Of a stretch of DNA of 64,000 bases, positions 44,301-47,300 are shown piece after piece; positions within the stretch are counted from its first letter, which is position 1; the number at the start of each line of letters is the position of its first letter. Source of the DNA: Phymorhynchus buccinoides (lineage: Eukaryota > Mollusca > Gastropoda > Neogastropoda > Raphitomidae); NCBI GenBank assembly GCA_017654935.2, contig CM065684.1, positions 60,446,286 to 60,510,285 on the forward strand, given 5' to 3'. Under the pieces are notes generated by a model. The model worked only from the letters and a program-made list of their open reading frames with translations. It was not told where the DNA came from and searched no databases. The translations under genes and the position numbers were made by a program.

Positions 44301-47300
44301 AAACGTGTGTGTTCGCTTTGTATTGCATTTTTGTTTGAATGCGTTGTGAATGCTAACGTGTGTGTGCGCTTTGATTTGATTTCTATCCAGATTCAGCGCC
44401 GTATAAATACTGTATGTTGTTGTGTGCAGCACATCATGGAAGGGGGCCCCATCAAGGAGGTGCTGTTTGAATGTTGCCTAACGGGTTGCGTTGACTGTTG
44501 TGTGCAGCACATCATGGAAGGGGGCCCCATCAAGGAGGTGCTGTTTGAATGTTGCCTAACGGGTTGCGTTGACTGTTGTGTGCAGCACATCATGGAAGGG
44601 GGCCCCATCAAGGAGGTGCTGTTTGAATGTTGCCTAACGGGTTGCGTTGACTGTTGTGTGCAGCACATCATGGAAGGGGGCCCCATCAAGGAGGTGCTGT
44701 TTGAATGTTGCCTAACGGGTTGTGTTGACTGTTGTGTGCAGCACATCATGGAAGGGGGCCCCATCAAGGAGGTGCTGTTTGAATGTTGCCTAACGGGTTG
44801 CGTTGACTGTTGTGTGCAGCACATCATGGAAGGGGGCCCCATCAAGGAGGTGCTGTTTGAATGTTGCCTAACGGGTTGTGTTGACTGTTGTGTGCAGCAC
44901 ATCATGGAAGGGGGCCCCATCAAGGAGCTGCTGTTTGAATGTTGCCTAACGGGTTGCGTTGACTGTTGTGTGCAGCACATCATGGAAGGGGGCCCCATCA
45001 AGGAGGTGCTGTTTGAATGTTGCCTAACGGGTTGCGTTGACTGTTGTGTGCAGCACATCATGGAAGGGGGCCCCATCAAGGAGCTGCTGTTTGAATGTTG
45101 CCTAACGGGTTGTGTTGACTGTTGTGTGCAGCACATCATGGAAGGGGGCCCCATCAAGGAGGTGCTGTTTGAATGTTGCCTAACGGGTTGCGTTGACTGT
45201 TGTGTGCAGCACATCATGGAAGGGGGCCCCATCAAGGAGGTGCTGTTTGAATGTTGCCTAACGGGTTGCGTTGACTGTTGTGTGCAGCACATCATGGAAG
45301 GGGGCCCCATCAAGGAGCTGCTGTTTGAATGTTGCCTAACGGGTTGCGTTGACTGTTGTGTGCAGCACATCATGGAAGGGGGCCCCATCAAGGAGCTGCT
45401 GTTTGAATGTTGCCTAACGGGTTGCGTTGACTGTTGTGTGCAGCACATCATGGAAGGGGGCCCCATCAAGGAGGTGCTGTTTGAATGTTGCCTAACGGGT
45501 TGTGTTGACTGTTGTGTGCAGCACATCATGGAAGGGGGCCCCATCAAGGAGGTGCTGTTTGAATGTTGCCTAACGGGTTGCGTTGACTGTTGTGTGCAGC
45601 ACATCATGGAAGGGGGCCCCATCAAGGAGCTGCTGTTTGAATGTTGCCTAACGGGTTGTGTTGACTGTTGTGTGCAGCACATCATGGAAGGGGGCCCCAT
45701 CAAGGAGGTGCTGTTTGAATGTTGCCTAACGGGTTGCGTTGACTGTTGTGTGCAGCACATCATGGAAGGGGGCCCCATCAAGGAGCTGCTGTTTGAATGT
45801 TGCCTAACGGGTTGTGTTGACTGTTGTGTGCAGCACATCATGGAAGGGGGCCCCATCAAGGAGCTGCTGTTTGAATGTTGCCTAACGGGTTGTGTTGACT
45901 GTTGTGTGCAGCACATCATGGAAGGGGGCCCCATCAAGGAGGTGCTGTTTGAATGTTGCCTAACGGGTTGTGTTGACTGTTGTGTGCAGCACATCATGGA
46001 AGGGGGCCCCATCAAGGAGGTGCTGTTTGAATGTTGCCTAACGGGTTGTGTTGACTGTTGTGTGCAGCACATCATGGAAGGGGGCCCCATCAAGGAGGTG
46101 CTGTTTGAATGTTGCCTGACGGGTTGTGTTGACTGTTGTGTGCAGCACATCATGGAAGGGGGCCCCATCAAGGAGGTGCTGTTTGAATGTTGCCTAACAG
46201 GTTGTGTTGACTGTTGTGTGCAGCACATCATGGAAGGGGGCCCCATCAAGGAGGTGCTGTTTGAATGTTGCCTGACGGGTTGTGTTGACTGTTGTGTGCA
46301 GCACATCATGGAAGGGGGCCCCATCAAGGAGCTGCTGTTTGAATGTTGCCTAACGGGTTGTGTTGACTGTTGTGTGCAGCACATCATGGAAGGGGGCCCC
46401 ATCAAGGAGCTGCTGTTTGAATGTTGCCTAACGGGTTGTGTTGACTGTTGTGTGCAGCACATCATGGAAGGGGGCCCCATCAAGGAGCTGCTGTTTGAAT
46501 GTTGCCTAACGGGTTGTGTTGACTGTTGTGTGCAGCACATCATGGAAGGGGGCCCCATCAAGGAGGTGCTGTTTGAATGTTGCCTAACGGGTTGTGTTGA
46601 CTGTTGTGTGCAGCACATCATGGAAGGGGGCCCCATCAAGGAGGTGCTGTTTGAATGTTGCCTAACGGGTTGTGTTGACTGTTGTGTGCAGCACATCATG
46701 GAAGGGGGCCCCATCAAGGAGGTGCTGTTTGAATGTTGCCTAACGGGTTGTGTTGACTGTTGTGTGCAGCACATCATGGAAGGGGGCCCCATCAAGGAGG
46801 TGCTGTTTGAATGTTGCCTAACGGGTTGTGTTGACTGTTGTGTGCAGCACATCATGGAAGGGGGCCCCATCAAGGAGCTGCTGTTTGAATGTTGCCTAAC
46901 GGGTTGTGTTGACTGTTGTGTGCAGCACATCATGGAAGGGGGCCCCATCAAGGAGGTGCTGTTTGAATGTTGCCTAACGGGTTGTGTTGACTGTTGTGTG
47001 CAGCACATCATGGAAGGGGGCCCCATCAAGGAGCTGCTGTTTGAATGTTGCCTAACGGGTTGTGTTGACTGTTGTGTGCAGCACATCATGGAAGGGGGCC
47101 CCATCAAGGAGGTGCTGTTTGAATGTTGCCTAACGGGTTGCGTTGACTGTTGTGTGCAGCACATCATGGAAGGGGGCCCCATCAAGGAGGTGCTGGGTGA
47201 GATGAAGAGCATGCTCAACACCCCCATCAAGGCATACACCCCCCCACCGCCCCCCTCCATCTCCTCCCACCTCAACATGCCCCAGTCACCCGTGTCCTCA

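Follow-up and report, generated by a model that had tools for sequence, protein, structure and literature searches.

The Smaug gene of Phymorhynchus buccinoides

The window—the whole stretch of 64,000 nucleotides that was analyzed—carries a Smaug gene on its forward strand, the model of which comprises the following coding exons:

29192-29399, +: coding exon 1, with a Pfam Vts1 match
30320-31021, +: coding exon 2
37449-37772, +: coding exon 3
38630-38739, +: coding exon 4, SAM domain
42108-42194, +: coding exon 5, carrying the second SAM-domain half; phase 0 at its end
47160-47358, +: coding exon 6 proper, 199 nt; donor AAG/GTGAGT
49063-49151, +: coding exon 7
50123-50223, +: coding exon 8; 50223 gives a GT donor
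51626-51887, +: coding exon 9
54389-54554, +: coding exon 10

The assignment to Smaug is given by an N-terminal Vts1-like region that is followed, in the conserved order, by the SAM and PHAT stretch. The 606-aa query is 82% identical, over 100% of its length, to the Smaug homolog 2-like protein of Babylonia areolata, and the nearest proteins are those of caenogastropods—after Babylonia areolata (82%) come Littorina (76%), Batillaria (75%), and Nucella (74%). As the best whole-protein match stays at 82%, the species itself seems to be absent from the 120 listed proteins. Three of the Smaug exon frames gave no match in Pfam. In the assembly of 2.12 Gb and 3962 contigs, a SAM–PHAT query returned no second Smaug locus, with 7/7 matches lying in this gene.

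Coding exons 5 and 6 are joined in phase 0. PDB 1oxj ('RNA-binding protein Smaug'), which we take to be the Drosophila protein, aligns across their junction. The placement of the junction in the SAM–PHAT stretch by a preceding sequence-only reading is borne out. Two relatives, P0121 and P0123, seem to run into the intron at this same place, so that the intron is probably of long standing here. In the gene model of the Nucella lapillus Smaug (P0004), the SKQAVSRTQSAPL stretch is repeated and additional residues follow LMGKG; possibly, duplicated junctions of this related snail have been taken for coding sequence there.

A tandem array of the exon 5/6 junction

Between exon 5 and exon 6 proper, the acceptor junction of exon 6 is repeated in tandem. 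The array and its 5' surroundings consist of:

43927..43962, +: 36 nt from the intron part of the 5'-most unit; 92-97% identical to the units, 97% to the best-matching one; also returned by the search of the genome with the unit
43963..44419, +: 5'-truncated copy of a non-LTR retrotransposon (LINE) between branch point and AG; ends accurate to a few bases
44420..44429, +: first acceptor, TTGTGTGCAG, which the LINE parts from its own CTAAC
44430..47159, +: 35 tandem units of 78 bp, each with 36 nt of coding exon 6 and 42 nt of intron 5, ending GTGTGCAG

With the register set by the exon, the 35 units fill 2730 bp of the forward strand without a single indel, and Tandem Repeats Finder (TRF) reports 35.6 copies with 98% matches at 44418-47195. 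Pairs of units differ by 1.1 of 78 bases on average and by 3 at most. Only four columns of the unit vary—31 (G/C), 51 (A/G), 54 (G/A), and 60 (T/C). The exon part begins CACATCATGG (CACATC) and ends GTGCTG, or CTGCTG in 12/35 units, and the 42-nt intron part reads TTTGAATG...CCTAACG...GTGTGCAG. Together with exon 6 proper, intron 5 hence offers 36 acceptors. Such an array is beyond chance origin. The sequence-only reading had described the unit as 42 nt of intron with its acceptor plus the first 36 nt of exon 6, which is seen in all 35 units; its exact 35 × 78 bp also stands. Its start at 44420 takes in the last 10 intron bases before the first acceptor (44429).

Traces of the array's history

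The 5' half unit, which the sequence-only reading had not reported, begins with GCTG (43927-43930), which is common to the exon breakpoint. An initial tandem duplication presumably occurred at this 4-bp match between intron 5 and the end of the exon part, and the array would later have grown through unequal exchange or slippage.

The element within the 5'-most unit is assigned to the LINEs by its likeness to reverse transcriptases, with a C-terminal-like frame at 43968-44234; Pfam gave no match on this piece or on two similar pieces. Its family match covers 43966-44423. Out of 3192 candidates, 40 matches were scored, one of them being the element's own position. The closest copy is 97% identical, most of the copies shown extend further 5', and several bear (TTG)n tails. 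Over 437 sites, the copy in the array shows 10 private substitutions, and it is missing 7 bases present in the majority of the other copies; the 29 compared copies deviate by 0-1.6% from their own majority. None of the 35 array intron parts contains the LINE, so the duplication is most simply older than the insertion—the LINE sets a lower bound on the age of the array. Further pieces of this kind occur in the window. A fragment at 25375-25460 (minus strand) is 92% identical to the array's LINE copy over 86 bases, and it resembles, like those at 14467-14886 (minus strand) and 52757-53062, the C-terminal ends of LINE reverse transcriptases. An open frame at 1776-2387 matches the Pfam reverse transcriptase family RVT_1 (3.1e-13).

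C at column 60, which is also found in the 5' half unit, clusters toward the 5' end (one-sided shuffle, p 0.0001) and recurs in the last unit. Both outermost units keep C while the middle is mixed, as expected if array edges escape homogenization. A higher-order pattern was considered and dismissed, with similarity being weak at lag 2 (p = 0.0065) and lag 7 (p = 0.042), uncorrected for the 8 lags.

Splice signals of the units

In every unit, the 36 nt of exon start are accompanied by CTAAC or CTGAC, a T/G-rich tract, and CAG. The branch-point-like CTAAC lies 27 nt upstream of the exon part and is replaced by CTGAC in 2/35 units (column 51); it stands at -27 in all 6 scored acceptors with intact intron parts. 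From -14 to +1, the acceptor signal is identical across 35/35 units. On a scoring matrix that applies to all acceptor and donor scores given here, the array acceptors (7 scored) reach 3.6 and the first one 4.3, within a range of -0.9 to 12.8 for the gene's nine acceptors. As the signal is identical in 35 units and of ordinary strength, the upstream acceptors are not forbidden by their sequence. On the other side of the exon, the donor of coding exon 6 scores 12.4, the top of the gene's ten donors (5.6-12.4).

Two further signals were considered and dismissed. A cryptic donor within the unit (GAG/GTGCTG) scores 3.3 versus 5.6-12.4 for the gene's donors and is abolished by G>C in 12/35 units. 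A special RNA fold of the units performs no better than shuffles (z-scores 0.42, 0.08, and -0.21).

The open reading frame

Frame +0 runs through all 35 units in phase 0 with 0 stops. Because exons 5 and 6 join in phase 0, each additional unit adds 26 residues, and insertions of 0 to 35 × 26 residues are possible—the spacing in multiples of three, the absence of stops, and the n × 26 residues had all been read correctly from the letters. The run of 910 codons arises from the repetition of a single open unit of 26 codons, and a reverse frame is likewise free of stops; since 35 copies inform as a single unit, the open frame is weak evidence. Among 1186 42-nt segments ending on AG from 29500 to 54300 (without the array; largely intronic, but with the exons), 595 contain no stop in the frame ending on AG. 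Multiplied by one third for a length divisible by three, this gives a chance of 0.17 for a unit that is in frame and open.

Of the four variable columns, three are synonymous and one exchanges V and L. At least 3/4 has a probability of 0.09 given the base changes. This hints faintly that the units are under coding constraint; as a demonstration of such constraint, it was rejected as insufficient. None of the 54 aligned Smaug relatives (the first 54 of 120 listed) bears an insertion of more than 3 residues at the exon 5/6 junction. A two-unit protein query found 3 proteins at E <= 0.001, 0/3 with unit residues. The open frame is probably a lucky or permitted property of the array and not its cause.

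Duplicated exon edges in Smaug and other genes

Besides the array, five Smaug junctions are spanned by local duplicates:

36602..36755, +: acceptor junction of coding exon 3 (37449), two copies at 36641-36677 and 36696-36731; tandem repeat of period 54
38804..39017, +: donor junction of coding exon 4, two further copies at 38804-38915 and 38921-39017
47948..47997, +: donor junction of coding exon 6, of which a weak 50-nt copy (78%) is present
50869..50896, +: acceptor junction of coding exon 9 (51626), of which a 28-nt copy (93%) is present
51806..52117, +: donor junction of coding exon 9 (51887), spanned by a 113-bp × 2.7 tandem repeat

With simple repeats masked, 5/19 junctions are spanned with the duplicate within 2 kb, compared with 116/2396 intron points (4.8%; binomial p = 0.0017); masking drops the exon 4 donor, which the unmasked search shows. 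Without the array itself, 4/18 junctions remain (p = 0.009). The intron-point control climbs to 9.2% when 5 kb are allowed, 3/19 junctions are left at 45 bits versus a control of 4.4%, and a limit of 600 bp leaves 2/18. Exon interiors are spanned at 35/404 points (8.7%).

Such duplicates recur at exons of other genes. Three of the 30 best kinase loci, many of which are single long open frames, bear arrays over an edge of the match (3/60 edges, or 3/26 if the 13 lower-ranked loci L056-L068 are taken by themselves). Of 28 further exons—18 myosin and 10 kinase, hand-picked as short matches before their flanks were seen, with several per gene—10 are crossed by a local tandem duplicate, at 12/56 edges. 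An edge is hereby the end of a profile match, which usually lies within some codons of the splice site, and not a verified splice site. The spanned edges are:

L057 (kinase), 688-1616: acceptor; 7 copies counted by eye, with the genuine one among them, each of about 139 bp
L065 (kinase), 1665-2305: donor; about 6 copies counted by eye, each of about 110 bp
L064 (kinase), 1757-2405: 73 bp × 9
L069, L071, L072, L074, L077, L083, L086, L091, L094, L095 (kinase and myosin): 12 spanned edges

The L064 locus may be a pseudogene, as the adjoining match has stops. Because the arrays in L070, L076, and L079 do not quite reach the acceptor, they are left out of the spanned edges.

Under the same rule, 9/232 control points are spanned in 29 LINE loci and 3/55 in random loci (11 of 14 kept, 3 dropped for runs of N). 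For the 28 exons, 12/56 exceeds the pooled controls of 12/287 (Fisher, p = 6.8e-5), as do all 17/100 edges together (p = 1.0e-4), and against the random loci alone p is 0.024—values to be read with three gene families, criteria set after first sight, several exons per gene, and mutual dependence of the control points inside one locus in mind. Duplicates cover 19-33% of the flanks of the 28 exons out to 600 bp, 8-32% in the 13 kinase loci, and 2-22% in Smaug, compared with 5.9% in random and 9.1% in LINE loci, which stand in for matched far-intron points of those genes. With coverage remaining high up to 600 bp away, it is the surroundings of the exon, rather than the junction point, that are rich in duplicates.

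The duplicates at the 15 spanned edges outside Smaug are 75-97% identical. The shift to the nearest copy is a multiple of three at 3 of these edges and not at the other 12; the extra sites can hence not all be used. Junction copies that are out of frame are not freely usable, which supports a silent reading for the class. Junction duplicates of this kind appear to be widespread in the snail genome.

Comparison with known systems

Minisatellite-like tandem duplications over intron–exon boundaries are known as 'mirages' from lancelets. They are described for Adh3 and the globins BflGb6 and BflGb9 (PMC3087553) as well as for TnC and PGBD5 (PMC3902484), many with a splice signal and at the 5' or 3' end of the exon (PMC3087553, PMC3902484). 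As given in the former, the BflGb6 mirage has 6 and 3 units of 150-160 bp in two haplotypes with 81-100% identity, RT-PCR suggests that splicing is undisturbed, and somatic instability is reported for Adh3 (PMC3087553). The Smaug array resembles these mirages as a tandem boundary duplication with a splice signal of which several genes per genome bear an example. It differs in its snail host, its open and in-frame unit, and its LINE-based age bound, and, compared with BflGb6, in its 35 units versus 6 and 3 and in its 98% matches versus 81-100% identity. While splicing and haplotype lengths were observed in lancelets, the Smaug array is known from one genome assembly. The sequence-only reading knew of no described junction amplified to this degree; for the kind of array, this fails in view of the lancelet mirages, BflGb6 with its 6 and 3 units among them. 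In the mostly open-access literature searched, no described boundary array with as many as 35 units was found, nor an array called mirage outside lancelets or in a mollusc. The kind is known, while the copy number, the taxon, and the apparent genome-wide scale look new.

Other systems share single traits. A minisatellite of the human IFI6 (6-16) gene reportedly (NAR 1995) provides multiple splice donor sites in a unit of 12 nt. It likewise multiplies a splice site within a gene, yet with donors in a short unit, whereas the Smaug unit carries an acceptor with branch point and exon start. Dscam-type arrays consist of diverged whole alternative exons with donors. Both they and the Smaug array line up many equivalent acceptors in series, but the units in Smaug hardly differ from one another, and the best site resembling a donor in them is weak (3.3). 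For recently duplicated human genes, one study describes internal tandem repeats at exon–intron boundaries, with 30-bp units and 4 repeats on average, which can alter splicing and create introns (PMC2812944). The Smaug array, in comparison, repeats 78 bp 35 times in a conserved gene of which one locus was found.

Origin and function of the array

We consider the array to be a mirage, that is, a minisatellite of the intron–exon boundary which is mostly silent, with its last acceptors used by exon definition (probability about 0.62). Its tandem units contain the intron end, the exon start, and the splice signal, and duplicates recur at other exon boundaries of the genome, as is characteristic of mirages. 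Under exon definition, a short exon of 199 nt is expected to beat exons longer by 78n nt. Since the strong donor at 47358 and exon definition prefer 199 nt to the 2929 nt that the first acceptor would give, the last acceptors should be favored, and the spliceosome would mostly link exon 5 with the final acceptor or one of the few before it. The array would then mostly be removed along with the intron. Use of the acceptor n units from the end would add 26n residues in frame, which might be tolerated or rare, and minor isoforms with 26n extra residues are possible. Most likely, the array has no function or a slight one. Of the three options that the sequence-only reading had left side by side—length-variable protein, bank of acceptors, or neutral repeat—the evidence leans to a mostly neutral repeat. 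None of the 54 relatives bears an insertion of more than 3 residues, 12/15 edges elsewhere are out of frame, and the lancelet precedents are reported to splice regularly (PMC3087553, PMC3902484).

Several acceptors might instead be used at appreciable rates. Smaug would then come in a series of isoforms in which n × 26 Cys-rich residues separate the SAM from the PHAT stretch, a series that varies with the array length of the allele. A stop-free 26-codon unit in phase 0, 35 identical acceptor signals from -14 to +1 with CTAAC at -27 in the 6 scored, and three synonymous variants out of four are all compatible with this, as is the altered splicing that boundary repeats can cause in human genes (PMC2812944). 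All 54 relatives, on the contrary, keep this conserved point free of insertions beyond 3 residues, none of the 3 matches to the two-unit query bears the unit, chance alone would yield an in-frame open unit in about 17% of cases, and similar duplicates of the genome are mostly out of frame; such a series of isoforms is unlikely. Still less probable is a bank of identical competing 3' splice sites that slows or scatters splicing and sets the level or timing of Smaug via splicing kinetics and nuclear retention, without the repeat protein as its product. The 36 acceptors in one intron of the sole Smaug locus found would fit, yet the same architecture occurs at unrelated exons, nothing tested shows regulation, and the units have no special RNA fold.

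Near-identical tandem units are a classic site of mis-assembly, and one lancelet mirage was misassembled in a draft genome (PMC3087553). An artefact or an inflated copy number is very improbable here, as the unit variants are ordered—C60 clusters 5' (p 0.0001) and reappears at the end of the array—, the first unit holds a LINE copy that has diverged, and other duplicates of the assembly are diverged (75-97% identity at 15 edges). Copies of the adjoining LINE are common, which would suit a dispersed satellite or transposon that landed at the exon by chance. But nearly half of the unit is Smaug exon, and a 3-unit query of the own 2.1-Gb genome found the unit nowhere else, 17/17 places being this locus—in a search that passes over very common words and can therefore not prove the rarity of the unit. 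Such a landing is scarcely credible.

Beyond the mirage reading of this one array, the exon edges of this snail lineage might be duplication hot spots throughout the genome, with about one edge in five or six affected in the sample and decoy junctions in most genes, and the Smaug array might be an extreme case whose 36 near-identical, competing acceptors give an in-frame isoform ladder that varies between individuals; as a joint claim, this is rather doubtful. If exon-edge duplication is truly so frequent, it would supply material for one of the routes proposed for the birth of introns and exons, a route that in mirage form was found described for lancelet genes only, and it would presumably trouble automatic gene models. 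The 35 acceptors with the same signal also amount to a natural experiment on whether the first, the nearest-to-donor, or a random 3' splice site is chosen, and on how introns originate.

Other tandem repeats of the window

Further repeats lie elsewhere in the window. A minisatellite of 83 bp × 22.6 with 97% matches is found downstream of the last modelled Smaug exon (60855-62726). Two more, at 17931-18533 (51 bp × 12, open on both strands) and at 15108-15499 (64 bp × 6), were also noted, and 34762-35878 contains a pair of long (TC)n stretches, one of about 270 bp and one of about 590 bp.
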